64,000 nt of DNA. Origin: Streptoalloteichus hindustanus. GTDB lineage: Bacteria; Actinomycetota; Actinomycetes; Mycobacteriales; Pseudonocardiaceae. How positions within the stretch are numbered: the first letter of the stretch is position 1; each line of letters starts with the position of its first letter. The notes under the pieces were generated by a model. That model made no database searches. It was not told where the DNA came from and saw only the letters and a program-made list of their open reading frames with translations. The translations under genes and the position numbers were made by a program. The stretch is taken from contig NZ_FQVN01000002.1 of the NCBI RefSeq assembly GCF_900129375.1, forward strand, positions 803,022 through 867,021, read 5' to 3'. Shown here in pieces: positions 35,458-56,359 of this stretch.

Positions 35458-37220
35458 GACGCCGTGCTCCGCCGGACGTGGGCCAGGTACTGGACCCGGC
35501 TGGCCGCGCGACTGATCTTCCCGCTGGAGGTGCGCGGGGTCTGCCCCGGCTCCAGCAACCACATGTCGTGCACGGAAACGCCGTGCGTGCTGGCGACGGC
35601 GGCCCGCGCGGCGGCGACCACGTCCGGGGTCGTCGTGCCCCAGGTCCGCTCGTCCCTGGCCCGCTCGGCGACCACGACGAGGCGTTCGCCCTCGTCGCCG
35701 GGGATGGCGAAAGCGGCCACCGAGTGCCGGCGCACCGCGGGGTGCGCCCGCTCCACGGTCAGCTCGATGTCCTGCGGGTAGTGGTTCCTGCCGTCGATGA
35801 CGATCAGGTCCTTGATCCGCCCGGTGACGAACAGCTCGCCGTCCACCACGACCCCGAGGTCGCCGGTGCGCAGCCAGCCCCGCCCGTCCTCGCCCGCCGC
35901 GAGCGGGTCGTCCGGGGCGTCGAGCGCGAGCCCGAAGGTGCGACGGGTCTCCTTGGGCCGCCCCCAGTAGCCGAGTCCGACGTTGGGCCCGCTGACCCAG
36001 ATCTCGCCGACTCTCCCGTCCGGCAGGGGTTTGCACGTGCGCGGTTCCACGATCCGCACCCGCTGGTCCACCGGCCGGCCGCAGCCGACCAGCGTCGAGC
36101 TGGGGACGCCCACCGTCTCGATCGCCCGACCGGCGGCCAACGTCCTGGCGTCGAAGGTCCGCACGCGCGGCGCCGTCCCGGCCTGGTTCGCCGTCACCAG
36201 CACGGTGGCCTCGGCGAGTCCGTAGGACGGCCGGTGCGTCTCGCGCCGCAGCCCGCACTCCGCGAAGGTGTTGTGGAAGCGGTCGATGTTGCTGGGCAAC
36301 ACCTGCTCGCTCCCGTCGACGAGGGTGACGACGTCGTCGAGCCGGAGCAGGGCGCGTTCCCGGGCCGAGCAGCGGGCCGCCGCGTAGGAGTAGGCGAAGC
36401 TGGGGGCCGCGGTGATCGCGCCGGGGTTGGCCGACAACGCCTGGAGCCAGCGGCCGGGGCGCTCCAGGAACGCCGTGGGGTCCAGCAGAACGGCCCTGGC
36501 GCCCAGCAGGACCGGCGTGGCCACCGCCAACATCAGGCCCATGTCGTGGAACAGGGGCAGCCAGGACACGTTGACCGTGCGGCCGCGTTGGGCGCCATAG
36601 CACTGCGCGGCCTGGCGCGCGTTGGCCAGGACGTTGCCGTGCGACACCATCACCCCGGCCGGCGACCGGGTGGACCCCGAGGTGTACTGGAGATACGCGA
36701 GTTCGTCCAACCGCGGCGGTTTGTCCTCGTACGGCTTTCCAGTGTCCACAGTGTCCATGGGGACGACCACGTTCCCGCGCGAACCCGTGTGGTGGCGGAA
36801 GCGGTTGATCCCGTCGACCAGGTCCGAGGTGGTCAGGATGAGGGACGGCGAGCAGTCCGCCAGGATCGCGGCGAGCCGCATGTCGTGCGGGGAACCCGGT
36901 GGGAAGAGCGGCACCGCGATCCGCCGCGCGCGCAGCACGCCGAGGAAACCGGCCACGTAGGCGAGGGACTGTCCCGCCATGATCGCGATCCGGTCGCCCG
37001 GCGCGGTGTCCGGCGCGACGCGCAGGGCGACGGCGTCGGCCATGGCGTCGAGCTCCCGCCAGGTCAGCGTCTCGGCGACGCCGCCGGGGTCCCGGGTGTA
37101 GTCGAGACGGGTCAGGGCGGGCTCGTCGCCGAGCTCGCCGGCCCACCACCGCAGCAGGGTGGCGAGGGATTCACGGGGCGCGTTCCGGGGGACGACGGGG
37201 ACGGCAGAGTGACTGTTCAT
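35454..37220 (-). CDS. Fatty acyl-AMP ligase (FadD32-like)
   Basis: 588 residues of the fatty acyl-AMP ligase class. The P-loop is YTSGSTRSPAGVMVSHGN near 175, followed by WLPLFHDMGLM near 225, SYGLAEATV near 345, GRIKDLIVIDGRNHYPQDIE near 465 and a C-terminal TSSGKISR Lys near 570. FAALs pass a fatty acid as acyl-AMP straight to a carrier protein instead of CoA, and the next gene begins with such a carrier domain. The overlap of stop and PKS start (4 bp) supports a working pair. It has the same position as FadD32 next to Pks13 in mycolate producers. Confidence 0.92.
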   Translation of the reverse strand: MNSHSAVPVVPRNAPRESLATLLRWWAGELGDEPALTRLDYTRDPGGVAETLTWRELDAMADAVALRVAPDTAPGDRIAIMAGQSLAYVAGFLGVLRARRIAVPLFPPGSPHDMRLAAILADCSPSLILTTSDLVDGINRFRHHTGSRGNVVVPMDTVDTGKPYEDKPPRLDELAYLQYTSGSTRSPAGVMVSHGNVLANARQAAQCYGAQRGRTVNVSWLPLFHDMGLMLAVATPVLLGARAVLLDPTAFLERPGRWLQALSANPGAITAAPSFAYSYAAARCSARERALLRLDDVVTLVDGSEQVLPSNIDRFHNTFAECGLRRETHRPSYGLAEATVLVTANQAGTAPRVRTFDARTLAAGRAIETVGVPSSTLVGCGRPVDQRVRIVEPRTCKPLPDGRVGEIWVSGPNVGLGYWGRPKETRRTFGLALDAPDDPLAAGEDGRGWLRTGDLGVVVDGELFVTGRIKDLIVIDGRNHYPQDIELTVERAHPAVRRHSVAAFAIPGDEGERLVVVAERARDERTWGTTTPDVVAAARAAVASTHGVSVHDMWLLEPGQTPRTSSGKISRAASRVQYLAHVRRSTAS

Positions 37221-37251
37221 CGGTCCTTCGACTTCGTGCAGGGGGAACGGG

Positions 37252-38532
37252 TCATCGGCCGGCGGCGGCAGCGGGCTCGGTGGCGGGAGAGCGGACCCGG
37301 GGCCGCAGGAGGCGCGGCGCGAGGGCCGCGCCGGCGAGCTGCGCCGCCGCGGCCAGCACGAGCCCCGCCGTGTAGCCCCGGGCCAGCTCAGGTCCCGTGA
37401 GGCCGGTGGTCTGGCCCGCGTTCACCAGGGCCAGGACGGCTCCGGTCAGGGCGATCCCCGCCGCGGCGGACACCTCGCGGGCGGCGGTCAGCAGTCCCGA
37501 GGCCACGCCGGCGTCCTCCGCGTCGACCACGTCCAGCGCGTGGGCGGTCAGCGGGGTGGTGAGGGCCGAGCCGACGCCGACCACGAGCAGGCCGACGAGG
37601 CGGGGCTCGACCGACGGCACGTGGTTCACCGCCGCCACCGCCGTCATCCCGGCGGCGACGCCCGTCAGGCCGAGGGCCACGGTCCTGGCCGGCCCCAGAC
37701 GGCGCTGGATGGCGGGCACCAGCGGCGTGGTCGCGATGACCGCGACCGCGACCACCGACAGCGGCAGACTCGCCCTGCCCGGGGACATCCCGAGGAAGTC
37801 CTGGTGCAGCAGGGGGGTGTAGAACACGACGCCGCTCGTTCCCAACCCCCACAGGAGAAGAACCGCGTTGGCGCCGAGGAAGATGGGATTTCTCCGGAGC
37901 CGCGACGCCACCGTGCTGGTGGGCGCTCCGCTCACCCGGGTCGGCGCCGGCCGCCGCACGGCGCTGTCGCCGACCCGCGGCACCAGCAGCCCGGCGGCCA
38001 GGAGAAGGGGCAGGTGCCCCAGGAAGATCCAGCTCCAGTGGGCGTGTTCGGTGAGGAAACCGCCCAGCCACGGCCCGAGCGCCAGGGCCGTCGCCACCGC
38101 CGCGGTCCAGATCGCGGCGCCCGGCGTGCGCCAGCGCGGGTCCAGCGCGGTGCGGACCAGCCGGAGGGTTCCGGGAACGACCAGCGCCGCCGCGATGCCC
38201 TGCACCACCCGTGCGGTGAGCACGGCTTCGGCCGTCTGCGCCAGCCCACCGAGCAGCGAGCCCCCGGCGAACACCGCGAGACCCGCGAGCAGAACCCGGT
38301 TCCCACCCCGGTCGACCAGGGCGCCGGCGACCAGGAGCAGACCGCCGTAGGGAAGCATGTAGCCGATGCTGAGCCAGGGCAGGGAGGACAGGCCCATCCC
38401 GAGATCGCGGCCGATGGTGGGCGCGGCCGCCACCACGACCGTGTTGTCCACTGTGGACACGAAGGCGACGAGCGCGACGACCGCGAGCGTCGCGACGTGG
38501 CGCCCAGGACGGCGCTGCGGGAGAACGCTCAC
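37252..38532 (-). CDS. MFS exporter
   Basis: 426 residues with about 12 hydrophobic helices, beginning VVALVAFVSTVDNTVVVAA. The loop LVDRGGNRVLL matches the conserved motif A region, and ARVVQGIAAALVVPGTLRL the motif C-like helix of drug:proton antiporters. It lies 31 bp before the fatty acyl-AMP ligase on the same strand and overlaps the upstream 29-codon gene by 4 bp. It is probably the exporter for the lipid product or an intermediate. GTG start. Confidence 0.88.
   Translation of the reverse strand: MSVLPQRRPGRHVATLAVVALVAFVSTVDNTVVVAAAPTIGRDLGMGLSSLPWLSIGYMLPYGGLLLVAGALVDRGGNRVLLAGLAVFAGGSLLGGLAQTAEAVLTARVVQGIAAALVVPGTLRLVRTALDPRWRTPGAAIWTAAVATALALGPWLGGFLTEHAHWSWIFLGHLPLLLAAGLLVPRVGDSAVRRPAPTRVSGAPTSTVASRLRRNPIFLGANAVLLLWGLGTSGVVFYTPLLHQDFLGMSPGRASLPLSVVAVAVIATTPLVPAIQRRLGPARTVALGLTGVAAGMTAVAAVNHVPSVEPRLVGLLVVGVGSALTTPLTAHALDVVDAEDAGVASGLLTAAREVSAAAGIALTGAVLALVNAGQTTGLTGPELARGYTAGLVLAAAAQLAGAALAPRLLRPRVRSPATEPAAAAGR
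38446..38458. repeat. GTCCACTGTGGAC palindrome (copy 3)
   Basis: Exact copy of the recurrent palindrome, here inside the MFS coding region where it spells part of a Ser-Thr-Val-Asp segment. Confidence 0.7.
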
Positions 38533-44059: not shown

Positions 44060-45403
44060 CTAAGAGGATTCGTCCACTTCGGACCCGGTGCTGTGGTCGC
44101 CGAACACGGCGTGCAGTCCTCCCGTCGGGAAGACGTCCACCAGACGCGGCGTGATGCGGCCGTTGTAGCCGACCACCCGGCCTCCACACCACACCACGCC
44201 GAGCGTGCGCCGCATCCTGCCGGTCGCCGTCTCGACGTACTGGGACGGCACGAACTCCTGCACCAGCCAACCCTCACGGGCTCCTCTGCGCACCAGATCG
44301 CGCCACTGCGCGGGACTCTGCTCCCACCCGACGAACACGCTTCTGCTCAGCACGTCGAAGGGGGCCTTGAGCACCAGGTCGGTGCGGCGCGCGACCGCCT
44401 CGCCGGCGGTGACGCCGTCGTCGAGCTTCCTGCTCCACGGTACGAGCGCGTCGATGTCCGCGTTCTGGTCCGCGGTGAACAGGGAGCGGAAACGGGGGTC
44501 CGAGAGCGCGGCGGAGACGAGCTTGTTCCCGCCGACGAAGCGGCCTCGGACGCCGTTGAAGATGATCAGCTCGCCCGAGGCGATGCGCTTCAGCAGCGGG
44601 ACGTGGCGCTCCGGGTTCTCCACGATCGCCTGGTTCGGGTACACGAGGAAAGCGAGTGGTAGCTCGTCGTCACCGAGCTGGTCGGGGACCAGGAGGGCGG
44701 GAGTTCGGCCGTGGTGCCGGATGTGCGACTCCAGCAGCCGGACCTCGGTGAACGAACGCAGTTCCGCGGTGCACAGGATGCCGATGTGGTGGACGGCGTC
44801 ACCGTCGACACCACGCCTGGCCGCCACGTCGAGCAGCTCGGCCGCCATCCACCCGGGCTCCTCGCTCCGGGCCGGCCGGTACCCCTCGGTCAGCGAGCGG
44901 ACCGCGCTGGATCGACGCCAGTATCGGTTGAGCAGACCGTTCATGTTCGAGACCGGGTAGTCGCCGCCGATCTCGAAGATCCGAACGTTGCTCAACCGGT
45001 CGCCGCCCAGGTCGAGCCGGCAGTGGTCGACGTACCGGTCCTGTCGCACGTCGGCGAGCGCGTACTCGTGGAGCAGCGGAGGCAGGTTGAGGAACCGCCG
45101 GAGCTCGGAGTCCACCTCGTAGTGCCGCGCGAGGCGTTCCACGGCGCCGAGCACACTCGTGAGCCGCCGGCCCAGAGTCCGCTCGGAGTCCGGGTCCAAC
45201 CCGGTGAGCGCGGGCGCCATCGGGATCGCGGAGTGGTCCAGGGGCAGGATGCCGTCCTGCCGTGCGAGCGACCCGAACTGCTCCCAGCCGAGCTCGTGCT
45301 CGGTGTTCTCCACGTCAGCACCAGGTTTCTTCTGCCCGAAGTGCAGATCGAAGCGGAACAGTGACGCATCGGAGCCGTCTGTCCGACTGGAGTGCTGCGC
45401 CAT
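44060..45403 (-). CDS. ATP-grasp-like (glutathionylspermidine-synthase-type) protein
   Basis: 447 residues, soluble. The C-terminal half has LVLKAPFDVLSRSVFVGWE and GWLVQEFVPSQYVE near 340-390, a Lys-containing nucleotide-binding loop and acid pair as in ATP-grasp or glutathionylspermidine-synthase-like enzymes. The middle carries FEIGGDYPVSNMNGLLN near 145 and FNGVRGRFVGGNK near 265. These enzymes join an amine to a carboxylate using ATP. ATG at 45403 with GAGAGGAGC. It is divergent from the first precursor gene, and the shared gap has a 9-bp inverted repeat. It may modify the acidic tail or free intermediates; that is inference. Confidence 0.55.
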   Translation of the reverse strand: MAQHSSRTDGSDASLFRFDLHFGQKKPGADVENTEHELGWEQFGSLARQDGILPLDHSAIPMAPALTGLDPDSERTLGRRLTSVLGAVERLARHYEVDSELRRFLNLPPLLHEYALADVRQDRYVDHCRLDLGGDRLSNVRIFEIGGDYPVSNMNGLLNRYWRRSSAVRSLTEGYRPARSEEPGWMAAELLDVAARRGVDGDAVHHIGILCTAELRSFTEVRLLESHIRHHGRTPALLVPDQLGDDELPLAFLVYPNQAIVENPERHVPLLKRIASGELIIFNGVRGRFVGGNKLVSAALSDPRFRSLFTADQNADIDALVPWSRKLDDGVTAGEAVARRTDLVLKAPFDVLSRSVFVGWEQSPAQWRDLVRRGAREGWLVQEFVPSQYVETATGRMRRTLGVVWCGGRVVGYNGRITPRLVDVFPTGGLHAVFGDHSTGSEVDESS

Positions 45404-45720
45404 CGTCTGCTCCTCTCGGGAGTGCCGCCCTTGTCGGCCAGCATGCGCCCTGACGCCCCCGGATGTCGTTGAGCCGGGCAAGTGTTGGGTGTGGCACCGC
45501 GCCCGGAGCCCGTCCGGCCCGGAGTCCGCCGGGAGGGACAGGTGGGCTAGGTACGCGGGTGCTTACGTTGCGCACACAGGTTGCCGCCTAGGTATCCCCC
45601 GGTCGTGGGAATCGCATGCTTCTTTGGCGTGACGGCCTTTTCGGGCAACCACCGTCGGGCTAACACTTGCGCGTGTGCGGCGGTCCTACACGGTCGCTGT
45701 GCCCCAGGGAGGTTCTCATC
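45404..45720. promoter_or_regulatory. Divergent control region of the RiPP-like locus
   Basis: 317 bp with no gene. GCAAGTGTT (45478-45486) and AACACTTGC (45662-45670) form a 9-bp inverted repeat, one copy near each divergent start. CTAGGTA occurs twice (45547, 45588). These are candidates for a common regulator site and promoters. Confidence 0.45.
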
Positions 45721-45840
45721 ATGGACGTGTTCCGGGTTGAGCCCTTCGCGGAGATCGCTCCGGGTGAGCCGGAGGTGGATCCCCAGACCATCCGCTCGTG
45801 CCTCGTCGCCGCGGACGTCGCGGTCGAGGCCGAGGGCTGA
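45721..45840 (+). CDS. RiPP precursor 1 (divergent member)
   Basis: 39 residues: MDVFRVEPFAEIAPGEPEV, then DPQTIRSCLVAADVAVEAEG. It keeps the family pattern F-x-E-x-x-P-x-E-P-E-V in the leader and an S-C pair and acidic Ala-rich tail at the core end, but differs from the other six in most positions. An AGGGAGG site lies 8 bases before the ATG. It is the first gene after the divergent promoter region. Too short for usual gene callers; support comes from the six relatives behind it. Confidence 0.75.
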   Translation: MDVFRVEPFAEIAPGEPEVDPQTIRSCLVAADVAVEAEG

Positions 45841-45875
45841 GCCGCGGCGTCGCCGCGGCCGCCGTCGCGGGGTTC

Positions 45876-45893
45876 GTGGGACGAACGTCCCAC
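45876..45893 (+). terminator. Hairpin after precursor 1
   Basis: GTGGGACG/CGTCCCAC starts 36 bp after the stop. A second, CCCCAG-AATC-CTGGGG, follows at 45935-45950. Position matches the hairpins after the other precursors. Confidence 0.6.
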
Positions 45894-46331
45894 CTGTGGG
45901 CCCCACACCCGTTTTCCTCGACACAGGGTCGACTCCCCAGAATCCTGGGGTCCTGAGAGGACACATCGTTGACGGCTCCGTCCTCGTTGGTCTCCTGTCC
46001 TGAAGCCTGTTCCCGGCGGTTCGAGGACTGGCGCACAGCCTCCGACGGGTCCGACCCGAACGCATCGCCGCGCACTCGTGTCCCGCTCCACACGGTCTGT
46101 CCACTGTGTATGAACCTTGACCAGTCGTTCTGGCGATCGCCGCACTCACCGATCGGCGGTCGCGTCCTCTCAGTTCCAGCGACAGGTCCGCACGCCAGTC
46201 GGAGCGATGCGGCCCCGCGATCCACGCCACGTCATCGCGGAACGTGCCCGTTGCGTGGCGGTGTGTGGGAGAGACCGCCGGCGGTGGGACACCGGAGGCG
46301 GAGAGCACGAGGCAGGAGGGAGGTGTGCATC

Positions 46332-46439
46332 ATGGATGAGCTGTTCGAGGAGGTCACTCCGCGTGAGCCGGAGGTGGTTCCGTTCAGCGCGACCTTCAGC
46401 TTCGTCGCGGCGGACGTGGAGTCCGAGGACGAGGAGTGA
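46332..46439 (+). CDS. RiPP precursor 2
   Basis: 35 residues. Leader MDELFEEVTPREPEVVP; core with alternating S-x-T-x-S (FSATFSF); tail VAADVESEDEE. A GGAGGTG site lies just before the ATG. With precursors 3 and 4 it forms the long-tail subgroup. It should be recognised through its leader by the E1-like domain of the downstream cyclodehydratase. Confidence 0.85.
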   Translation: MDELFEEVTPREPEVVPFSATFSFVAADVESEDEE

Positions 46440-46473
46440 GTCGAGATCACGCGCCTGGCTGGTCCAGGAGCCG

Positions 46474-46507
46474 GGGACCCGTAGGGCGGCCAATTCCTAC
46501 GGGTCCC
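46474..46507 (+). terminator. Terminator-like hairpin after precursor 2
   Basis: Perfect 12-bp stem with a 10-base loop, beginning 35 bp after the stop and followed within 13 bases by a run of five T. It is the most terminator-like of the seven. Confidence 0.75.
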
Positions 46508-46704
46508 TCAATACCTTTTTCGCGAGAGGTGGGCCGTGCGCCGGCCGCTGCGGTTCTCACTCTGTTCGTGGTGCGCCGGTTCCGCGGCGTCCACCAAAAG
46601 TGGAGTTTGTGAGCCTTTCTCGCTGACTGGAGATTGATGTGTGGGGCGGGGGTAACACCTCGGACGTGCCCGTGCGATCGCATAGCGGGGAGGAGGTGTG
46701 AATC

Positions 46705-46812
46705 ATGGACGAGCTGTTTGAGGAGATCACGCCACGTGAGCCGGAGATGGTGCCGCTGACCGTGACGGTCAGCTTCGTCGCCGCGGACGTGGAGTCCGAG
46801 GACGAGGAATGA
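46705..46812 (+). CDS. RiPP precursor 3
   Basis: 35 residues. Leader MDELFEEITPREPEMVP; core LTVTVSF (T-x-T-x-S); tail VAADVESEDEE identical to precursor 2. The upstream block GGGGAGGAGGTGTGAATC is shared with precursors 4, 5 and 6. The core differs from its neighbours at several hydrophobic positions, which would give a distinct product. Confidence 0.85.
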   Translation: MDELFEEITPREPEMVPLTVTVSFVAADVESEDEE

Positions 46813-46911
46813 GTGGTGGGACGGCCGGTGTGGCCGCCGGTCGTCGCGTGTCCTCGATGCTCGTGCGGAATCCGCAGTCCTTATCGCGTGATGACGGGCA
46901 GGGTCGCGGGT

Positions 46912-46942
46912 GCGACAGGGACTCCGGCTGTGTCCCGCGACC
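46912..46942 (+). terminator. Hairpin after precursor 3
   Basis: GGTCGCGGG pairs with CCCGCGACC (9 bp). It starts 100 bp after the stop, further than the 34-37 bp seen for the other six. Confidence 0.6.
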
Positions 46943-46986
46943 TCGGACGTGCCCGCGCGATCGCATGGCGGGGGGAGGTGTGAATC

Positions 46987-47094
46987 ATGGGCGAGCTGTT
47001 TGAGGAGATCACGCCGCGTGAGCCGGAGATGGTGCCGCTGAGCCTGACGGTCAGCCTCATCGCCGCGGACGTGGAGTCCGAGGACGAGGAGTGA
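46987..47094 (+). CDS. RiPP precursor 4
   Basis: 35 residues. MGELFEEITPREPEMVP leader (Gly replaces Asp at position 2), core LSLTVSL (S-x-T-x-S), tail IAADVESEDEE. GGGGGAGGTGTGAATC precedes the ATG. It is most similar to precursor 3, pointing to a duplication between them. Confidence 0.85.
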   Translation: MGELFEEITPREPEMVPLSLTVSLIAADVESEDEE

Positions 47095-47127
47095 ATCGGG
47101 ACATGGCTTCGGCCATCTGTGGTGATG

Positions 47128-47170
47128 GCGGGGTTCGTGGGTCCTCCACCGGGTGGCCCGCGAACCCCGC
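47128..47170 (+). terminator. Hairpin after precursor 4
   Basis: A perfect 10-bp outer stem (GCGGGGTTCG/CGAACCCCGC) continues inward with more pairs. It starts 34 bp after the stop. Confidence 0.7.
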
Positions 47171-47371
47171 TCCTGTGCGAACCGTGTGCGGGCCGGCGGT
47201 TGAAGCGGAAACTTCGGGCACCCGTTTCGGCGGTGAGTTTTTTGTTCGCAGCCCCTTCTTCCCTCGTCCGTGCGGTTTGGCGCTCGCTTTCGCGGGGGAG
47301 CGGTTTGGGTGCCGCCTGGCGGACGAAGCCTGGTGACGTGCCCGTACTTCTGACGGGAGGAGGTGTGAATC

Positions 47372-47464
47372 ATGGACGAGCTGTTCGAGGAGATCGCTCC
47401 GCGTGAGCCGGAGGTGGTTCCGTTCAGCGCCACCGTCTGCTTCGTGGCTGACGACGAGGAGTGA
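47372..47464 (+). CDS. RiPP precursor 5
   Basis: 30 residues. Leader MDELFEEIAPREPEVVP; core FSATVCF (S-x-T-x-C); short tail VADDEE. First member of the short-tail subgroup in which Cys replaces the last Ser. It has the shared GGGAGGAGGTGTGAATC ribosome block. It begins the 224-bp repeated unit that also holds precursors 6 and 7. Confidence 0.88.
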   Translation: MDELFEEIAPREPEVVPFSATVCFVADDEE

Positions 47465-47497
47465 GTCGCGATGCGCCTGTGTTGTTGACGGGTGGCA

Positions 47498-47536
47498 GGG
47501 GTCCGCAGGAGCGTGGTGAGACGTCCTGCGGGCCCC
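47498..47536 (+). terminator. Hairpin after precursor 5
   Basis: 13-bp stem (GGGGTCCGCAGGA against TCCTGCGGGCCCC, one G-U pair) with a 13-base loop, 34 bp after the stop. Confidence 0.75.
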
Positions 47537-47595
47537 TCTCGTCAGCGCGTGCGAGCAGCGCTCGCCGGTCGCATGTTGGGAGGGAGGTGTGAATC

Positions 47596-47688
47596 ATGGA
47601 CGAGCTGTTCGAGGAGGTCGTTCCGCGTGAGCCGGAGATGGTCCCGGTCTCGATGACGGCCTGCTTCGTGGCTGACGACGAGGAGTGA
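47596..47688 (+). CDS. RiPP precursor 6
   Basis: 30 residues. Leader MDELFEEVVPREPEMVP; core VSMTACF (S-x-T-x-C); tail VADDEE. Its flanks are nearly identical to those of precursor 5, but four of the seven core residues differ in part or whole. The ribosome block is GGGAGGGAGGTGTGAATC. Same predicted processing as its relatives. Confidence 0.88.
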   Translation: MDELFEEVVPREPEMVPVSMTACFVADDEE

Positions 47689-47721
47689 GTCGCGGTGCGC
47701 CTGTGTTGTTGACGGGTGGCA

Positions 47722-47760
47722 GGGGTCCGCAGGAGCGTGGTGAGACGTCCTGCGGGCCCC
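47722..47760 (+). terminator. Hairpin after precursor 6
   Basis: Identical copy of the precursor-5 hairpin, 34 bp after the stop, carried along in the duplicated cassette. Confidence 0.75.
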
Positions 47761-47819
47761 TCTCGTCAGCGCGTGCGAGCAGCGCTCGCCGGTCGCATGC
47801 TGGGAGGGAGGTGTGCGAC

Positions 47820-47912
47820 ATGGACGAGCTGTTCGAGGAGGTCGTTCCGCGTGAGCCCGACGTGGTTCCCGGGAGCATCACGGCCTGCTACATCGCAGCC
47901 GACGAGGAGTGA
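47820..47912 (+). CDS. RiPP precursor 7
   Basis: 30 residues. Leader MDELFEEVVPREPDVVP; core GSITACY (S-x-T-x-C); tail IAADEE. Last precursor before the modification enzymes; only a hairpin and about 140 bp separate it from the cyclodehydratase start. Its ribosome block ends GTGCGAC instead of GTGAATC. Confidence 0.88.
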   Translation: MDELFEEVVPREPDVVPGSITACYIAADEE

Positions 47913-47948
47913 GCCGCGATGCTCCGCGGTTCGTGAGAGGTAGCCAGG

Positions 47949-47984
47949 GGGTCCGCGGATCGTGACTGGGCGGTCTGCGGACCC
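47949..47984 (+). terminator. Hairpin between the precursors and the enzymes
   Basis: An 11-bp stem (GGGTCCGCGGA/TCTGCGGACCC, one G-U) starts 37 bp after precursor 7. If it acts as a leaky terminator it would keep enzyme levels below peptide levels. Confidence 0.7.
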
Positions 47985-48051
47985 TTCCTCCACTGTGATG
48001 GTCGACGCGCTGCCAGGAAGCTGGTGCCTGGTGGGGACTCGGAGAGAGCAC

Positions 48052-50175
48052 ATGGCGAGCTGGGCTTCCATAGTTCCCCGCGCTGACGTTCGCATCCAGC
48101 GCTCAGGGGACCACGTGTACGTGTGCAGCAGCGACGGTCCGCCGCTCCGCCTTCGGTTCGACACGCCCAACGATGCCGAGGTGGAGTGGCAGGACCTCCC
48201 TGACACCGCCGTCTCCGCGTTGGTGGAGCGTGGTTTGCTCGTCCCCGCGGACCAACCGCTGCGCCGCCATCCCTCCTTCGGCGCCAGCGCCACTGGTGCC
48301 GTGCACGTGCCGGGGGAGGACCCGCTGAGCGCGGCGGTCACGGCGGTACTGGGTCGGATCGGCGTCGCCGTCGAGTCGGGACTTTCGCCTCGCGTGGCGG
48401 CGGTCGTGCTACCACTGTCCACATCGGAGGATGGGCTGCGGAACCTCGCCGACTGGTCGATGCGGGAGAAGAAGCCGGTCATCACCTTCGCCGTCGCCGG
48501 TGCTCGCACCTACTTCGCGGTGCTCCGTCCCCCGCGGACAGCCTGCCCGGCGTGCCTGGAGCGCAGGATTCGGGCGACGCGCCCCGACCAGTCCCTGGCT
48601 CGGCTGCCGGTGGAGACGCTTCTCGGGGCCTGGTCCGACGACTTCTGGCCGAGCAGCACGGCGGCGGCCGGCCTGATCGCGCACCAGGTCGTGCGCGCGA
48701 TGGGCACCGGGGACGACGACTCGGCGGAGTTCTCGGAAACCAACCTGGTGGAAGCGAATCTGGACACGTGCGAGCGGATCAACCATCCCCTGCTGCACCT
48801 TCCGTTCTGCCCTGTGTGCGCCGACAGGGTTCCTCCCGTCCGCCGGGAACTGCGGGACACGTCCCCGGTCTCGACCGAGCGGAGCTGGCAGCGGATGCGG
48901 CGTGCCGTGGACCCGATCACCGGAGTCCTCTCCGGCATCCGGGTGTACGAGCCAGGCGAACCCGGCTCGACCGTCGACTCCACCGTCGTCTGGGGCCGGG
49001 GTGGCACCGACACGAGGTGGTTCTCGCCGGTGCGCGCCTCCTGCATCGGTGGTTCGACCAAACACGACCCGGTCGACGCTCGGGTGTGCGCCATCGGCGA
49101 AGTGCTCGAACGGTACGCGGCGGGGATCTACGACCCGGCCCGCTTCGTCCGGGCGTCCCTGTCCGAGCTCGGCCCGAAAGCCGTCGACCCGAGGGAACTT
49201 CCCCTCGGCTCCGAGCGCGAGTACGAGGCGGTCAGGGGTGTGCTCTTCCCCTACGAGCCGGATCTGGTGATCGACTGGGTGGAGGGCGTGGAGCTCGACA
49301 CCGGCGAATCCCGCTACGTCCCGGCGATCGCGGTCCACCTCCCCTACGTTCCCCCGAACCGCCAGGAACGGTTGCTGCACCCCAACTCCACGGGCACGGC
49401 CGCGGGAAGCGTTCTGCCGCAGGCCGTGCGCGGTGGTCTGCTGGAGATCGTCGAGCGGGACGCCGCCGCGGTCTTCTGGTACAACCAGCTCGTTGTGCCC
49501 ACTGTGGACTGGTCGACCCTCGACCCCGGTCCGGCGCGCACCGTCCTGGAGCGGATGCGGAGTCGCGGGATCGAGTTGGTGGCGAAGGACATCACCACCG
49601 ACCTCGGGATTCCCGCCATGGTCGTGCTGGGTCGCATCGACACCCCCGAACGGCCCGTCGCGCTGTGCGGCTACCGCGCGGACCTGGACCTGCGCTCGTG
49701 TCTGCTGGGCGCTGCCCAGGAACTGGAGCACGTGTTCTGCATGTACTGGCGTTCCCGGGAGCTCGGGGGAGAACCGAGCCTGGACGAGCCACGCGACATC
49801 TGGGACTTCACCACGTACTACTGCCACGAGAGTCGTGTCTCGTTGCTCGACTTCATGCGGGAAGGACCGGTGCGGCCACTGAGTGCCGAAGCACCGGAAC
49901 GGTTGTCGGACGTCGAGGCGATGGACCAGGTCGTCGAGCGTCTCTCGGTCGCCGGCCACCATCCGGTCGCCGTGGACATCACGCCGATCGACGTCGCCGA
50001 ATGCGGTGTCAGCGTCGTCCACTGCGTCGTTCCCGGCCTCCAGCCCGTGGGTTTCTCCACGACCTTCCGGCGTCTCGGCGGTCGTCGGCTCTACGAGGCT
50101 CCGGTCCGGATGGGTTTGCGGGACAGGGAACTGGCCGAGCACGAACTGACCCCGCACCCGATCCCGATGGGATAG
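48052..50175 (+). CDS. Fused E1-like/YcaO cyclodehydratase
   Basis: 707 residues. The N-terminal part (about 1-270) is the E1-like leader-binding partner. It has a winged-helix-like start (ADVRIQRSGDHVYVCSS) and two CxxC zinc pairs, CPAC near 165 and CPVC near 252. From about 290 it is a YcaO domain: SCIGGSTKHDPVDARVCAIG, GEVLERYAAG, then GGLLEIVERDAAA near 460. The C-terminus ends PHPIPMG, the Pro-rich tail needed by azoline-forming YcaOs. It should use ATP to turn Ser/Thr/Cys of the precursors into azolines. The start at 48052 (GGAGAG site) is preferred; an ATG at 47998 is possible. Confidence 0.92.
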   Translation: MASWASIVPRADVRIQRSGDHVYVCSSDGPPLRLRFDTPNDAEVEWQDLPDTAVSALVERGLLVPADQPLRRHPSFGASATGAVHVPGEDPLSAAVTAVLGRIGVAVESGLSPRVAAVVLPLSTSEDGLRNLADWSMREKKPVITFAVAGARTYFAVLRPPRTACPACLERRIRATRPDQSLARLPVETLLGAWSDDFWPSSTAAAGLIAHQVVRAMGTGDDDSAEFSETNLVEANLDTCERINHPLLHLPFCPVCADRVPPVRRELRDTSPVSTERSWQRMRRAVDPITGVLSGIRVYEPGEPGSTVDSTVVWGRGGTDTRWFSPVRASCIGGSTKHDPVDARVCAIGEVLERYAAGIYDPARFVRASLSELGPKAVDPRELPLGSEREYEAVRGVLFPYEPDLVIDWVEGVELDTGESRYVPAIAVHLPYVPPNRQERLLHPNSTGTAAGSVLPQAVRGGLLEIVERDAAAVFWYNQLVVPTVDWSTLDPGPARTVLERMRSRGIELVAKDITTDLGIPAMVVLGRIDTPERPVALCGYRADLDLRSCLLGAAQELEHVFCMYWRSRELGGEPSLDEPRDIWDFTTYYCHESRVSLLDFMREGPVRPLSAEAPERLSDVEAMDQVVERLSVAGHHPVAVDITPIDVAECGVSVVHCVVPGLQPVGFSTTFRRLGGRRLYEAPVRMGLRDRELAEHELTPHPIPMG

Positions 50176-50179
50176 GCCC

Positions 50180-52474
50180 ATGGACGCCCCGGTGTCAGCG
50201 CACTCGTTGTGCCGGTCGCGGGCGCCGTACCGGGTCGAGGTGGGCGGCGTCCTGACACCGAGCGGGATCGAGCGCGGGCGTCGCGTTCTCACGGTCCTTT
50301 CCCCGGACTCCTGGGAGATCCGGCCAACCGGTGATCCGGTCGACGCGAGCTTCCCCGAAACCCTTGTCGCGCCAGCGCTCTGCGACGCCCACGTTCACCT
50401 GCACCCGTTCGTCGATCTCGCCGAGTACGTGACGTACGGGGTGACGCGGATACGTGATCTGGGATCGCTGGTCGGTGCGGGTGAGAAACTTCCGACCGCC
50501 AGCGGTTGTGCGGACCCGGTGCCCGAGATCGTGCTCGGCGGTCCTCTGTTCGACAGGCCGGGCAAACAGCGTCTGCTCATCGCCGCCCCCTGGAGCGACG
50601 CGGCCGACCTGCCCGCCCTGTTCGACGCCGCGGTCGCGCGCGGCGCGCGGTGGATCAAGCTGTACGCGCGTTTTCCCGCCGAGCTCTACGACACCGCGGT
50701 CGCCCTCGCCCACGCCCGTGGGCTCCGAGTGGCCCTGCACCCGGGTCCCGGCGACTACTCCGCGGCCGTTCGCGCGGGAGTTGACGAGCTGGAACACCTC
50801 GTCTGCCTGACTCCGGCCGGCGACGGCGTTCACGGCACCCACGCGGTGCACCGGCGGTGGGCCGATCGCCGCGATCAGGACACCTGGCCCTGTCTCCCGC
50901 CGGGAACCGCGGTGTGCCCGACGCTGATCGTCAACCACCACCTGGTGGCTGAGGCGGAACGCGGGTGGTCGTTTCCCGGGCACGACCCGACGATGGTCCG
51001 GTTCTGGCGTGAACTCACCGTCGTGTCCCGGCCCTGGACCGAGGAGGAACTGGCGGCCGGCCGCGCGGCCGTCGCCCGGATGGCCGCCGCGATCCCCGAA
51101 CTGGACCGGGCCGGTGTGCGGTGGGTGATCGGCAGCGACACCCCGAACCCCGGCGTCCGACCGGGAAGGAGCCTGTGGGAGGAGATGAACCTCCTCGTCG
51201 CCGCCGGGCTGGACCGCATGGCGGTCTACCGCGCGGCCGCCGTCGCGCGGGGCCTGGGCGAGACGGGCGCCGACTCCCTCGTCCTGCTTCCACTGTCCAC
51301 TTTCGACTCGCCGGTCTTCCCGGTCGAGCCCCCCACCGCCGTTCTGCTGCGAGGTTGCCTGTTCGTCGCCAACCGTGAGACGGAGGCCGTGATGACGACC
51401 CGATACCGACGCAATCCCTGGCTGCTCGTGGAATGGGACGACGGCGACCGCGTCGTGGTCGTGAACTCCCGGTCCCAGCGCAGGTTCCGGATCGAGCCTG
51501 AGTTGTTGTGGCTGCTCAACCAGATCTCGAAGACCAGGGCGCCCGAAGAGCTCGACCTGCCGGGCTACTCGGCCGACCAGCTCGCGGGACTGCTCACCCG
51601 GTTGGCCGAGGCCGGCATCGTGCAACCCGTCAACAGCGTCAACGGGGAGAGCCCCGCCGACCGGAACGAGTGGACGGCCTGCGAGCTCGCGGTCCACGCG
51701 CAGGCGTCCCGGGGCGGCAAGCCGAAGATGAAGCTGCGGGACATCCCGTCCGCCCGCCTGAACCACGCCGAGGCGACGCGGACGATCCCGTTGTCCTCGC
51801 CGTCGCCGCCGAGTCGGCCGCTGGCCGAGGTGCTCCGCGCCCGCCGCAGCATCCGCGACTTCGCCCCGGCCCCGTTGCTCCTGGACGAACTGTCGGCCTT
51901 CCTCGACCGCGCGGCCCGGGTGGAGGGGTGGCTCGGGCGGGACGAGTGGCAGACCACCCGGCGGCCCAGCGCCTCGGGCGGCGGCCGGCACAGCATCGAG
52001 CTCTACCTCGTGGTGCGGAACGTGGACGGACTCGAACCGGGCGCCTACCACTACGACCCGTTCGCCCACGCGCTGGAACAACTCCAGCCCTGGTCGTCCG
52101 AACTGGACGATCTCCAGCACCGGCTGCTGTGCCGGGCGATGATGGTCGAGAAGCCGCCGCAGGTCAGCTTCTACCTCGCCTCGTACTTCCGGCGGGTGCA
52201 GTGCAAGTACGGCGGCATGACGCTCAGCGTGATCTACCGGGACACCGGCTGCCTCATCCAGACCTTCTACCTCGTGGCCACGGACCTGGGGTTGGCCCGG
52301 TGCGCGACCGCGACCATCGAGGCGGAGCCGACCCCCAGCTTCCTCGGCGCGTACCGCGACTCCTTCATCCACACCGCGAACTTCGCGCTCGGCCTGCCCG
52401 CGTCCGAGGAACCCTCGAACCCCGACTTCCGGCCGCTGACCAACGGGACGGCCACCGGAGAGGAGCGGCGGTGA
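50180..52474 (+). CDS. Amidohydrolase fused to a SagB-type FMN dehydrogenase
   Basis: 764 residues, 4 bp after the YcaO stop. Residues 1-400 are a metal amidohydrolase: DAHVHLHP near 70, Lys in WIKLYARF, His in VALHPGP and DELEHLV, Asp in VIGSDTPNPG. Residues about 405-490 look like the winged-helix/RRE-like start of SagB proteins (YRRNPWLLVEWDDGD). From about 545 is the nitroreductase-fold dehydrogenase (EVLRARRSIRDF, SGGGRHSIELYLVV, TDLGLARCATATIE). The dehydrogenase should oxidise azolines to azoles. The amidohydrolase may cut the leader or another amide. GGAGG followed by ATG at 51392 offers an internal start for a free dehydrogenase. Confidence 0.88.
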   Translation: MDAPVSAHSLCRSRAPYRVEVGGVLTPSGIERGRRVLTVLSPDSWEIRPTGDPVDASFPETLVAPALCDAHVHLHPFVDLAEYVTYGVTRIRDLGSLVGAGEKLPTASGCADPVPEIVLGGPLFDRPGKQRLLIAAPWSDAADLPALFDAAVARGARWIKLYARFPAELYDTAVALAHARGLRVALHPGPGDYSAAVRAGVDELEHLVCLTPAGDGVHGTHAVHRRWADRRDQDTWPCLPPGTAVCPTLIVNHHLVAEAERGWSFPGHDPTMVRFWRELTVVSRPWTEEELAAGRAAVARMAAAIPELDRAGVRWVIGSDTPNPGVRPGRSLWEEMNLLVAAGLDRMAVYRAAAVARGLGETGADSLVLLPLSTFDSPVFPVEPPTAVLLRGCLFVANRETEAVMTTRYRRNPWLLVEWDDGDRVVVVNSRSQRRFRIEPELLWLLNQISKTRAPEELDLPGYSADQLAGLLTRLAEAGIVQPVNSVNGESPADRNEWTACELAVHAQASRGGKPKMKLRDIPSARLNHAEATRTIPLSSPSPPSRPLAEVLRARRSIRDFAPAPLLLDELSAFLDRAARVEGWLGRDEWQTTRRPSASGGGRHSIELYLVVRNVDGLEPGAYHYDPFAHALEQLQPWSSELDDLQHRLLCRAMMVEKPPQVSFYLASYFRRVQCKYGGMTLSVIYRDTGCLIQTFYLVATDLGLARCATATIEAEPTPSFLGAYRDSFIHTANFALGLPASEEPSNPDFRPLTNGTATGEERR

Positions 52475-54150
52475 GCACGGTCGAGGACCGCTCGGCGTCC
52501 GTTCTCGCACACTCCCTGCGGCACGGGTTGAGGCTGGGCGACAACCCTTTCGTTCTCCCGGCTGGCGGCGTGGACGACGGACGGCGGAGGGCGATCCTCA
52601 CCACGTTGACCGACCACTTCGCCGCGAAGCTGCGGGTGCTCCAGGGCTCCCGGAGCGACCGGGGCGTTGACTACCAGGCCGACCTGGGGGTGTTGCTCAA
52701 CTTCCCGTTCGCCTACATCGGCGATCCTTTCGAGGAGTCGGACTTCGCGCCCTACCTCAAGGCCGTCGAGCGGGAGGTGGTCGACTACTTCGCCCGGTTG
52801 TGGCACGCCGGTCCTCGCTCGGACGACGTCACCGACAAGGATGCCTACTGGGGGTACGTGCTCACGATGGGCTCCTCCGAGGGCATCCTCTACGCGTTGT
52901 GGGCCGCACGGGACCACCTCTCCGGCAAGTCGCTCGTGTCCGATGTGGACGACCACGGCAGTCCGGTGTGGATGTGGGTTCAGGACACTCCGCCGGACGG
53001 TGCTGAGAACGCCTACTCGCCGGTGGCCTTCCACTCCGCGGACTCCCACTACTCGATCAGCAAAGCCCTCCGGGTCCTGGGAATCCCGACGTTCTACGAG
53101 GTGGGGTCCGAGCGGTACCCGGAGGCCAACCCGCTGGCCCCGGGGCAGCCGTGGCCGACCGAGGCGCCGTGCCAGGGCGGAGCCTTCGGCTCGGGCCGCG
53201 TCGACGTCGGGAAGCTGGTCGCCCTCGTCGAGTTCTTCGCCGGCAAGGGACATCCGATCCTGTTGGTCCTCAACTACTTCACCTCGTTCAAGGGCGCCTA
53301 CGACGACGTCGAGGAGATCTGCGCGCGGCTTCGGCCGGTCTTCGCCCGGCACGGCCTCGACCGGCGCGCGGTTCGCCACGGTCTGGACGCGAACGGCGGA
53401 GATCTGACCGACGAGCGGACCGGCTACTGGGTCCACGTCGACGGCGCCATGGGCGGCATGTCCGCCGCGTTCCTGCGCAGGGCCGCCGAACAGGGCAGAG
53501 CCGTGGAGCGGGACGCCGACGGCCGGCCGCTCCGGTTCCCGAGGTTCGACTTCGAGGTGCCCGAGGTCTGCTCGATCGTCTCCAGTGGACACAAGTACAC
53601 CGAATCGCCTTGGCCGTCCGGGATTCTGCTGACCAAGCGCGGGCTCCACATGACCCCCCACTGCCAGCCCGACGCGACCAGTGTCGGCGACACCACGTTC
53701 GGCGGCTCACGCAGTGCTCTCGTTCCGATAGCCCTGTGGGACTTCCTGGCCAGCAACTCCGAACAGGACCAGGTCGACCAGGCCGTCCACGTCTGGGAGC
53801 GGGCCAGGGAGGTCGAGCGGACGCTGCGCGAGCTCGGACCCGAGTGGGACGTCCGCCGCAACGCCTGGTCGCCGATGGTCTGGTTCCGGAAGCCACCGCA
53901 GGAGATCGTCAACGAGTGCTGGTTGCTCACCGCCGAACTCCGCGAGGCAGCGGAAACACGGGAGTACGCGTGCTTCAATGCCGCGATGCACACCGGGCCC
54001 GAACGCCTCGCCCGGCTCGTCGAGCGGATGGCCCAGGCGACACCTGAACCACCGAGGTCCAACGCCCCCAACGCCCCTGCGAGAAGGGCCGACGGGCACG
54101 GCCCCGTGCGGCGGCTGGCCATGGTGCCCCTGCACCGGCGATGCCTCTGA
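52471..54150 (+). CDS. PLP-dependent (group II) amino-acid decarboxylase
   Basis: 559 residues of the aspartate aminotransferase-fold decarboxylases that include histidine, glutamate and aromatic decarboxylases. Landmarks are GYVLTMGSSEGILYALWAAR near 130, SADSHYSISKALRVLG near 190, the cofactor Asp in WVHVDGAMGG near 325 and the PLP Lys in SSGHKY at 375. GTG start overlapping the previous stop by 4 bp, so it is coupled to the azole enzymes. It could make an amine building block or decarboxylate the peptide end; neither is established. The C-terminal 40 residues are Pro/Arg-rich and extra to the fold. Confidence 0.85.
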   Translation: MSTVEDRSASVLAHSLRHGLRLGDNPFVLPAGGVDDGRRRAILTTLTDHFAAKLRVLQGSRSDRGVDYQADLGVLLNFPFAYIGDPFEESDFAPYLKAVEREVVDYFARLWHAGPRSDDVTDKDAYWGYVLTMGSSEGILYALWAARDHLSGKSLVSDVDDHGSPVWMWVQDTPPDGAENAYSPVAFHSADSHYSISKALRVLGIPTFYEVGSERYPEANPLAPGQPWPTEAPCQGGAFGSGRVDVGKLVALVEFFAGKGHPILLVLNYFTSFKGAYDDVEEICARLRPVFARHGLDRRAVRHGLDANGGDLTDERTGYWVHVDGAMGGMSAAFLRRAAEQGRAVERDADGRPLRFPRFDFEVPEVCSIVSSGHKYTESPWPSGILLTKRGLHMTPHCQPDATSVGDTTFGGSRSALVPIALWDFLASNSEQDQVDQAVHVWERAREVERTLRELGPEWDVRRNAWSPMVWFRKPPQEIVNECWLLTAELREAAETREYACFNAAMHTGPERLARLVERMAQATPEPPRSNAPNAPARRADGHGPVRRLAMVPLHRRCL

Positions 54151-54199
54151 GTGACGCGGGTCACGATTAACTCTCGGCGTTCGTGCGGTAGAAACTCTA

Positions 54200-54229
54200 A
54201 CGAGTGTTCAACTTGTTACGAGTGTTCAA
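54200..54229. repeat. Two direct repeats before the MFS gene
   Basis: ACGAGTGTTCAA occurs at 54200 and 54218, 18 bp apart, about 70-95 bp upstream of the exporter start. They are candidate binding sites for the TetR encoded after the exporter. Confidence 0.5.
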
Positions 54230-54295
54230 GAAGTTGCCGCACGGAGGATGTCGTGTCGTCGCTCCCGTCCACCACCGCACCGGGAGGCAGGTGCA

Positions 54296-55534
54296 GTGGC
54301 TAACCCCTACCGCGACCTGTTCTCCGCTCCCGGAGCCGTCGCCTTCACCCTGACCGGTTTCCTCGCCCGGCTGCCGGCGGCCATGCTCGGCATCGGGCTG
54401 ATCACGATGCTGGCCGAGCTGCGGGGCTCCTACGGGCTCGCCGGCGCCGTCTCGGCCACGTTCACCGTGTCCACCGCGGTCCTCGGCCCGCAGATCTCCC
54501 GGCTGGTCGACCGGGTCGGCCAGCGGCGGGTGATCCTGCCGGCGGCCCTGGTCAGCGCGGCGGCGCTCGCGGCGCTGCTGCTGTCCGCCAGGGCCGACGC
54601 CCCGGACTGGACGCTGTTCGTGCTCGCGGCCGTGGCGGGGTGCCTGCCCAACATGTCCGCGATGGTGCGGGCCCGGTGGACCGAGGTGTACCGGAACTCC
54701 CCGCGCCTGCACACCGCCTACTCCTTCGAGTCCGTCGTCGACGAGCTGACCTTCGTGATCGGGCCCGCGCTCGCGGTCTCACTGTCCACAATGGCCTTCT
54801 CCGAGTCGGGTCCGCTGGTCGCGACGGCGCTGCTCCTGGTCGGCGTCCCGCTGTTCGCGCTCCAGCGGAGCACGGAGCCGCCGGCCAGCGCGGACGCCGG
54901 GACCGGCGGCAGGTCGGCGATCCGGTCCGGCCCGATGGTCCTGCTCGTCCTGACGCTGCTCGCCGGCGGGATCATCGTCGGCACCGTGGACGTGGTCAGC
55001 GTCGCCTTCGCCGAACACCTCGGCAGCACGGCCAGCGCCGGCGTGGTGGTGTCCGTCTACGCGGTCGGCTCCGGTCTGTCCGGGCTGGTCTTCGGCACCC
55101 TCCGGATCGGCCTGCCGCTGCCCAGGCAGCTCGTGCTGTTCGTCATCGGCACCGCCGTCACCACCCTGCCGCTGCTGCTGGTCACCGGCATCGTCGGCAT
55201 GTCGGTCACGGTGTTCCTCGCCGGCGTCTTCTTCGCCCCCACCATGATCACGGTCATGGGCCTGGTCGAGAAGATCGTTCCCGCCGAGCGGCTCACCGAG
55301 GGTATGACCTGGGCGATCACCGGCCTGAGCGCCGGTGTGGCGCTCGGCGCGGCGGTGTCGGGGCGGGCGGTCGACGCCTTCGGCCCCCGGGGCGGTTTCG
55401 TGGTGGCCATCGCCGCCGGTGGCGTCGCCCTTCTCCTGGTGCTGTTCGGTCAACCGCTGCTGACCAGGCGGCTGCGCGCCATCGCGCGCGACCAGGAGGA
55501 GACCGTCGACGCCCAGCGAACGAGTGTCGCGTAA
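54296..55534 (+). CDS. MFS exporter of the RiPP-like locus
   Basis: 412 residues, about 12 hydrophobic helices, starting ANPYRDLFSAPGAVAFTLTG (given in part as NPYRDLFSAPGAVAF). The loop SRLVDRVGQRRVIL is the motif A region. GTG start with CGGGAGG upstream. The longer ATG frame adds a basic tail and is rejected. It is separated from the decarboxylase by 145 bp that contain paired direct repeats, so it has its own control, probably by the TetR gene that follows. Likely exporter and self-resistance for the locus product. Confidence 0.87.
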   Translation: MANPYRDLFSAPGAVAFTLTGFLARLPAAMLGIGLITMLAELRGSYGLAGAVSATFTVSTAVLGPQISRLVDRVGQRRVILPAALVSAAALAALLLSARADAPDWTLFVLAAVAGCLPNMSAMVRARWTEVYRNSPRLHTAYSFESVVDELTFVIGPALAVSLSTMAFSESGPLVATALLLVGVPLFALQRSTEPPASADAGTGGRSAIRSGPMVLLVLTLLAGGIIVGTVDVVSVAFAEHLGSTASAGVVVSVYAVGSGLSGLVFGTLRIGLPLPRQLVLFVIGTAVTTLPLLLVTGIVGMSVTVFLAGVFFAPTMITVMGLVEKIVPAERLTEGMTWAITGLSAGVALGAAVSGRAVDAFGPRGGFVVAIAAGGVALLLVLFGQPLLTRRLRAIARDQEETVDAQRTSVA

Positions 55535-55670
55535 GGGATTCGACCCGCACCTGGTCGCCGGCACCGCTCCGCCCCCGCTTCCGCGGGACGGGGACGGGAC
55601 CGGCGACCAGGTACGGTTCTCGCCGGAACCGGCCGCGCGGAGCGGGCCGGTCCGGCACGAAAGGCCACAA

Positions 55671-55760
55671 CACCGGGGAACGCGGCAACAAGGAACACAG
55701 CACCGGGGAATGCGGCACCGGGGAACGCGGTGTCAGGGAACGCGGTGTCAGGGAACGGGA
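55671..55760. repeat. Six tandem 15-bp repeats before the TetR gene
   Basis: Six 15-bp units (consensus near CACCGGGGAACGCGG, later TGTCAGGGAACGCGG) fill most of the exporter-TetR gap and end 5 bp before the ATG. Copy number could alter the untranslated leader of the regulator. Two 12-bp repeats (ACCAACGAGGTG) continue inside the coding start. Confidence 0.75.
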
Positions 55761-55765
55761 GACCG

Positions 55766-56359
55766 ATGACCAACGAGGTGACCAACGAGGTGACCACCGA
55801 CGGCCGGCGGCTGAAGGGGGAACGCCGTCGGCGGGACCTCATCGAGGCGACCCTGCGGGTCGTCGCCCGCGAGGGAGTCGCCGGCGTGAGTCACCGGACC
55901 GTGGCCCGCGAGGCGGGTGTGCCGGCCACCGCCGCCGCCTACTACTTCCACGGCATCGACGACCTGCTCACCGCCGCCCTCAGCATCTGCATGGACGAGG
56001 ACGCCGACCGGTTGCGGGCGATCGCCGCCGCCGCCGACGGAACTCCCCGGGGCCTGCGGGCGCTGGCCGAGCTGATGGGCGAGATCGTCACGCCGCAGCC
56101 CAGCCGGTTGCTCGCCGAGTACGAGCTGTTCCTGCTCGCGGCCAGGGCGCCGGAGCTGCGCAAGCCCGTCCGCCGCTGGATGGACGGCCTGGTCGAGTTC
56201 GCCCGGTGCTACGTCGACAGCCCGGTCCGGGTCCAGGCCTTCGTCGGCGCCTTCGACGGCCTCCTGCTCCAGGCGATGCTGGTCGACCAGCCACCCACGG
56301 TCGACGAGTTCGAGGCTGTCCTGCGGGATCTCCTCCTGCCGAAGCAAGAATCACGGTGA
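55766..56359 (+). CDS. TetR-family regulator after the RiPP-locus exporter
   Basis: 197 residues. Helix-turn-helix at about 18-62 (LIEATLRVVAREGVAGVSHR, then TVAREAGVPATAAAYYFHGI), with a typical ligand domain after it. The protein starts MTNEVTNEVT because of a short DNA repeat. The ATG at 55766 has GGGAACGGGAG before it. It converges with an SDR gene. It probably represses the exporter upstream and responds to the exported compound. Confidence 0.87.
   Translation: MTNEVTNEVTTDGRRLKGERRRRDLIEATLRVVAREGVAGVSHRTVAREAGVPATAAAYYFHGIDDLLTAALSICMDEDADRLRAIAAAADGTPRGLRALAELMGEIVTPQPSRLLAEYELFLLAARAPELRKPVRRWMDGLVEFARCYVDSPVRVQAFVGAFDGLLLQAMLVDQPPTVDEFEAVLRDLLLPKQESR

Follow-up and report, generated by a model that had tools for sequence, protein, structure and literature searches.

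The window considered here is a 64-kb stretch of the 7.28-Mb genome of Streptoalloteichus hindustanus (G000), and the system in question is a locus within it for ribosomally synthesised and post-translationally modified peptides (RiPPs), in which seven small precursor genes precede an E1-YcaO cyclodehydratase, an amidohydrolase-SagB fusion and a pyridoxal-phosphate (PLP) decarboxylase. By analogy with known pathways, the locus appears to work like an azole RiPP system with a bottromycin-type end. Sequence comparison gives good support to its assignment to the azole RiPPs, with as many as seven products. For the pathway as a whole, the best reading is that azoles are formed on the core, that the follower is removed in an azoline-directed manner and that an amine is then ligated to the exposed azole acid, a tentative proposal with slightly less than an even chance of being right. 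Gene order, the precursor rule, the family and fold assignments and the co-occurrence of the genes are established directly. The genes are the following (positions in the window).

44060..45403, - strand: ATP-grasp protein, predicted ligase (ATG start chosen; the open reading frame, ORF, is open to 45481)
45721..45840, + strand: precursor 1, 39 amino acids, divergent, core QTIRSC
46332..46439, + strand: precursor 2, 35 amino acids, core FSATFS
46705..46812, + strand: precursor 3, 35 amino acids, core LTVTVS
46987..47094, + strand: precursor 4, 35 amino acids, core LSLTVS
47372..47464, + strand: precursor 5, 30 amino acids, core FSATVC
47596..47688, + strand: precursor 6, 30 amino acids, core VSMTAC
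47820..47912, + strand: precursor 7, 30 amino acids, core GSITAC
48052..50175, + strand: E1-YcaO cyclodehydratase fusion, 707 amino acids, predicted azoline synthase, C-terminal PHPIP
50180..52474, + strand: amidohydrolase (residues 1 to about 400) fused to SagB dehydrogenase (about 405-764)
52471..54150, + strand: PLP decarboxylase, L-methionine-decarboxylase-like (start by homology)
54248..55534, + strand: MFS exporter (PF07690)
55730..56359, + strand: TetR-family regulator (PF00440, PF17940)

Precursor peptides and their cores

The small ORFs start at 45721, 46332, 46705, 46987, 47372, 47596 and 47820, all on the + strand, with a GGAGG site 5' of each. A preliminary description of this DNA had proposed seven genes of 30-39 codons with one leader family; their number and size hold (39, 35, 35, 35, 30, 30 and 30 codons), and they do form a single seven-copy repeat family, although precursor 1 is divergent in sequence. 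A pattern made of a Pro, 5-11 residues, [STC][FYL][VIA] and an acidic end, within 24-60 codons, matched nothing outside these seven ORFs on either strand of the 64 kb, the 14 rows returned being alternative starts of the same ORFs. The same description had made its proposal depend on conservation of the small frames, and precursors indeed recur in five further loci. In all, 19 precursors were counted in six loci, which belong to five genomes: the window (7), L001 (5) and L003 (3) of Streptoalloteichus tenebrarius, L002 of Actinopolyspora biskrensis (2), L037 of genome G116 (1) and L038 of genome G399 (1). The earlier proposal of an azole RiPP with up to seven products is thus well supported, since the small frames recur and azoline-forming signatures are present, but the seven copies are specific to this strain.

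All 19 precursors share one architecture, in which a leader ending in Pro, with 16-23 residues before the core, is followed by the core and by [FYL][VIA] with a follower that is acidic in most of them. The core has six residues in 17 of the 19, one of the others having eight (LTVCLSLS) and one, a degenerate S. tenebrarius copy, eleven. Where the ATP-grasp gene is present (window, L001, L002 and L037), 12 of 15 cores, six of the window's seven among them, follow (x[STC])3 exactly and contain no additional Ser, Thr or Cys. One further core has the form (x[STC])4, and the rule is broken only by window precursor 1 and the degenerate S. tenebrarius copy. In the loci without that gene (L003 and L038), all four cores are x[STC]5. 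The closing [STC] partly defined the core boundary, whereas length and alternation did not. Shuffling residues within the 15 cores, which are related to one another, gave a mean of 0.65 (x[STC])3 cores, and 12 were never reached in 20000 trials. Short precursors with Ser/Thr/Cys cores beside the enzymes, found here 19 times in six loci, are a mark of azol(in)e RiPP systems.

Behind each precursor lies one GC-rich inverted repeat, weak behind the third, and no T-tract terminators were found at these repeats; those between 45841 and 47984 of the window may stabilise the transcript and so increase the supply of precursors.

46474..46507: GC-rich inverted repeat after precursor 2
45841-45859, 46883-46961 (weak, 71%), 47128-47170, 47497-47537, 47721-47761 and 47949-47984: other inverted repeats

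Modifying enzymes and the proposed pathway

The YcaO part of the cyclodehydratase matches the SagD-type profile TIGR03604 with 256.6 bits (cut-off 219.25) and its E1 part TIGR03882 with 43.2 bits (cut-off 36.9), both above curated cut-offs, and an E1 with a SagD-type YcaO is a combination characteristic of azol(in)e RiPPs (thiazole/oxazole-modified microcins, TOMMs, or linear azol(in)e-containing peptides, LAPs). The SagB part reaches 122.9 bits with TIGR03605 (cut-off 78.4), which marks it as a predicted flavin-dependent azoline dehydrogenase, a further trait of the class. CxxC pairs and a PxPxP tail occur in the YcaO of all six loci, and a KY motif in the SagB of the four examined (window, L001, L002 and L037); we take all of these to have the meaning usual in their families. 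Profile and homology matches bear out the downstream set of the preliminary description (E1-YcaO, amidohydrolase-SagB, PLP decarboxylase, exporter and TetR), and so does the spacing bear out the coupling of the last three enzyme genes: 4 nucleotides separate the YcaO stop from the start of the fusion, and fusion and decarboxylase overlap by 4 nucleotides, provided that the latter begins at GTG 52471, a start picked by homology in a frame that is open further upstream. ATG 48052 is the more likely start of YcaO, because homologues start there.

The best Protein Data Bank (PDB) match of the amidohydrolase profile is PurAH of bottromycin biosynthesis (E 1.1e-14), which is also the best fold match of the predicted model, at 21% identity in the fold alignment. 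Sequence and model together suggest a relative of the PurAH/BotAH type, not an orthologue. A PurAH-type amidohydrolase removes the follower in the bottromycin pathway (PMC10885120, cited, like the other papers marked by such accessions, for the portion of its text available). The fusion of the present amidohydrolase to SagB, listed earlier as part of the set, is there but not essential, two ORFs being found in three of the six loci: one ORF spans both parts in the window, L001 and L037, a stop interrupts the region in L002, and in L003 and L038 the two parts are encoded by separate ORFs that overlap.

The divergent gene that had been called ATP-grasp-like is indeed an ATP-grasp, recognisable only by its predicted fold, which over the whole length matches the glutathionylspermidine/glutathione-synthetase type. 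It is predicted from this model to be a C-terminal carboxylate-amine ligase. Six of the 390 genomes of the family carry the gene, and in every one it is found in the same locus as E1-like and YcaO genes, an association that points to a function within the peptide pathway. Four of these are the window, L001, L002 and L037, with E1 fused to YcaO, and the others lie in genomes G287 and G242 (L056:5814-10787; L057:7719 with L058:14038-18673). G287 has a row of ATP-grasp, E1-like, YcaO and SagB-like genes, the SagB-like protein falling just under the TIGR03605 cut-off, and in G242 the ATP-grasp gene is split by two contig ends, with E1-like and YcaO genes after one piece. In both, YcaO is above the TIGR03604 cut-off and the E1-like match to TIGR03693 below cut-off. 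Their candidate precursors, located ahead of the ATP-grasp gene, are unrelated, with the C-terminal sequences ...AVTAFATFAC and ...CQCFCCAN and no acidic follower, and neither stretch has a match to the amidohydrolase or the decarboxylase of the window (tblastn, E 1e-5). This pattern fits a ligase that acts on the C-terminal carboxylate, because such an enzyme would depend on the amidohydrolase only if a follower had to be removed. In wider samples, the only genome with the gene among 397 of the order was that of the window, and among 394 of the class there were two, the same one and another with a partial match at E 3e-21.

The decarboxylase is just below the cut-off of its Pfam profile (26.8 bits; cut-off 27). 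Its nearest relative of solved structure is L-methionine decarboxylase (7cif; 362 bits, E 4.8e-107), to which residues 11-488 align, a near full-length match in which SGHK, with its Lys, HVDGA and DSHYS are all aligned, presumably with the same roles. It is located among pathway genes in three loci. As separate observations, the decarboxylases of the window and of P0013, P0014, P0016 and P0021 end in a conserved and unexplained [VI]PxxRRC[LP] tail, and a second relative (45% identity) lies at G000:C13:11234-12700, with another in S. tenebrarius (G001:C38).

The preliminary description had assigned no role to the amidohydrolase, the decarboxylase or the ATP-grasp protein, and their relatives now suggest a likely one for each. 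The proposed model starts with the E1 part, which would bind the leader (e.g. MDELFEEVVPREPEMVP) while YcaO, as its family predicts, closes azolines on core Ser, Thr and Cys, and SagB would then oxidise these to azoles. The PurAH-like amidohydrolase would act at the constant [STC]|[FYL][VI] junction, cutting behind the last azoline and leaving a free carboxylate. The decarboxylase, to judge from L-methionine decarboxylase, would convert a hydrophobic amino acid, aliphatic or other, into an amine, and the ATP-grasp enzyme, whose fold is known to ligate amines to peptide carboxylates, would form the amide. A host protease would probably take off the leader after the constant Pro, so that up to seven short products could be exported by the MFS protein, under control of the TetR regulator.

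Several points weigh against this proposal. The predicted models have predicted local distance difference test (pLDDT) values of 82.9 and 79.8, and the fold names no substrate. G116 as a whole lacks the decarboxylase (E <= 1e-20), despite its ATP-grasp gene and (x[STC])3 core, and the G287 and G242 stretches gave no match to it (tblastn, E 1e-5), so that the amine would need another source there. An unrelated amidohydrolase-like ORF does occur in G287 (L056:15392-16459), 5 kb off and, by eye, beside an ffh-like gene. The cluster proteins scanned included no leader protease. The shuffle overstates independence, because the 15 cores are kin, and the alternation of the core is compatible with a macrocycle as well. 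Finally, an earlier bottromycin study connected the formation of the amidine with the amidohydrolase BtmI, and put forward BtmH as the enzyme that removes the follower (PMC5103208).

A macrocycle is the subject of the main alternative, head-to-tail cyclisation, which we regard as possible but rather unlikely: the ATP-grasp enzyme would join the N-terminus to the C-terminal azole acid after removal of follower and leader. The corresponding products, just as doubtful, would be cyclic (x-azole)3 and (x-azole)4 of bistratamide/patellamide shape, made without a subtilisin macrocyclase. ATP-grasp ligases are mentioned for N-to-C cyclisation of bacterial head-to-tail peptides in the available text of PMC8939145. 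The (x[STC])3 cores (12 of 15) and the (x[STC])4 core (1 of 15) of the ATP-grasp loci are what such closure would use, five contiguous azoles, as in the four x[STC]5 cores found elsewhere, should make six-residue ring closure more difficult, and the ligase is kept in a genome without the decarboxylase. Ring closure would account for the alternation and for its loss together with the ATP-grasp gene, but not for the decarboxylase, which is left without a role in spite of its place among the pathway genes of three loci. Besides, six-residue cores also occur without the ATP-grasp gene, so that core length is not set by ring closure, and the glutathionylspermidine synthetase (GspS)/glutathione (GSH)-synthetase fold is associated with intermolecular ligation.

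Less probable still are linear azole peptides with a free acid, for which ATP-grasp and decarboxylase would serve, for instance, N-terminal capping or resistance. Loci without these two genes retain YcaO, amidohydrolase and SagB, which may suffice for some product, but the presence of the ATP-grasp gene beside E1-like and YcaO genes in six of six genomes speaks for a part in the peptide pathway. A graspetide-like linkage of core Ser/Thr side chains to follower Asp/Glu, suggested by the Thr/Ser-rich core and acidic tail of most precursors, is very improbable, and the locus is not that of a graspetide, because its ATP-grasp fold differs from the RimK/MvdD type.

Comparison with known systems

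With the azole RiPP class at large, the locus shares the E1-YcaO and SagB set, the N-terminal leader and the Ser/Thr/Cys core; what distinguishes it is that the follower is constant and the core fixed at six residues, and that an amidohydrolase, a ligase and a decarboxylase are present. Patellamide, bistratamide and other cyanobactins also have alternating hydrophobic/azole hexa- or octapeptide cores, but they are cleaved and cyclised by the subtilisin-type PatA and PatG. No peptidase family was detected among the seven cluster proteins scanned, a search that did not extend to PatA/PatG in the rest of the genome, and the locus is not a cyanobactin one, because those proteins contain no PatA/PatG. 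The x[STC]5 cores of L003 and of the G399 locus resemble the azole macrocycles telomestatin and YM-216391, and with both of these the window shares a YcaO with a flavin oxidase, a short Ser/Thr/Cys core, and a leader plus follower (for telomestatin, PMC5469769). Telomestatin differs in its core of eight (CTTSSSSS) and in two peptidase-like genes, tlsS and tlsT, and the main text of that paper has no mention of an amidohydrolase, a decarboxylase or an ATP-grasp (PMC5469769).

Bottromycins arise from a leaderless precursor, and neither of the two YcaO proteins of their pathway has a cyclodehydratase partner (PMC10885120, PMC5103208). Here a leader is present and the seven proteins scanned include a single YcaO, fused to E1, so that the locus is not a bottromycin one. 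The likeness lies in the follower-removing amidohydrolase (BotAH/PurAH) and in YcaO chemistry, whereas the leader, the E1-YcaO with SagB, the alternating multi-azole core and the fusion of the amidohydrolase to SagB set this locus apart from bottromycin, as do ATP-grasp and decarboxylase, in place of which bottromycin has a cytochrome P450 decarboxylation (PMC5103208).

For the ligase, two comparisons can be drawn. Thiovarsolin clusters likewise have an ATP-grasp ligase, VarL, beside YcaO, a likeness by description only, but theirs is a YcaO-TfuA system with an amidinotransferase (PMC6511847). E-64 biosynthesis uses an ATP-grasp of the same fold, Cp1B, in clusters found via a PLP decarboxylase expected as amine source; it is, however, fungal and non-ribosomal, Cp1B adding an amino acid and a separate amide bond synthetase the amine (PMC12568646). 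The available text of a 2022 paper states that, to its authors' knowledge, YcaO with ATP-grasp was unreported (PMC8939145), yet VarL had appeared in 2019 (PMC6511847). No description of this gene set was found in the portions of literature searched, which did not extend to subscription papers, so that this is no proof of novelty.

If the proposed pathway is correct, amine end-capping would be a novel final step for azole peptides, the glutathione-synthetase-type ligase a new kind of RiPP tailoring enzyme acting on azole carboxylates, and azoline-sensing follower removal by an amidohydrolase a module more general than bottromycin alone. Seven ready-made six-residue cores that follow one rule would make a small, testable system for azole peptides with chosen side chains, and the same system could give them chosen C-terminal amides or rings. 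Should macrolactams be formed instead, the locus would represent a second, protease-free bacterial way to the bistratamide/patellamide scaffold.

Related loci and neighbouring genes

In a first comparison with 59 other genomes, one of the same genus shared the amidohydrolase part and the remaining matches were to SagB only; within the family, that part is found in 5 of 390 genomes. Relative to the window, L001 shows 59-78% identity for ATP-grasp, YcaO, fusion, decarboxylase, MFS and TetR, L002 47-61% for ATP-grasp, YcaO, fusion region and decarboxylase, and L037 56-63% for ATP-grasp, YcaO and fusion; for YcaO, amidohydrolase and SagB, L003 shows 48-51% and L038 50-56%. The 21 kb examined of L003 contained no match to the ATP-grasp or the decarboxylase. 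MFS and TetR genes at this position are common, among the six loci, to the window and L001 only. The scan of genome contigs listed at least 11 loci, from which L001-L003 were used; in the other eight, the cluster proteins matched nothing but part of the amidohydrolase, at 34%, in L004 and in L011 (tblastn, E <= 1e-8). No relative was found in viral contigs, and 7 plasmid records matched at E <= 1e-30, all below 60% identity.

L003:5706-13427, with the cores VCSSTC, VSCSCC and ACSCCC, is itself a candidate polyazole RiPP locus. A P450 gene lies upstream and, by eye, an O-methyltransferase-like gene downstream; a BotCYP-like decarboxylase role was considered for the P450, whose PDB matches shown are P450s of many pathways.

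A halotryptamine cap, provided by a halogenase and a flavin reductase encoded upstream of the A. biskrensis locus, was considered and dropped, because the halogenase matches RebH (E 5.5e-277) and the adjoining genes read rebeccamycin-like: P450, glycosyltransferase, methyltransferase and RebO-, RebD- and RebC-like genes follow further upstream (by eye, halogenase and reductase having been profiled). Genes of rebeccamycin-type appearance thus directly adjoin that locus (L048:373-16601). In the window itself, genes for carboxyltransferase (PF01039) and for AMP-binding (PF00501) proteins, separated by a long open stretch, occupy 27277-38532 on the - strand, possibly as part of a polyketide or related cluster.

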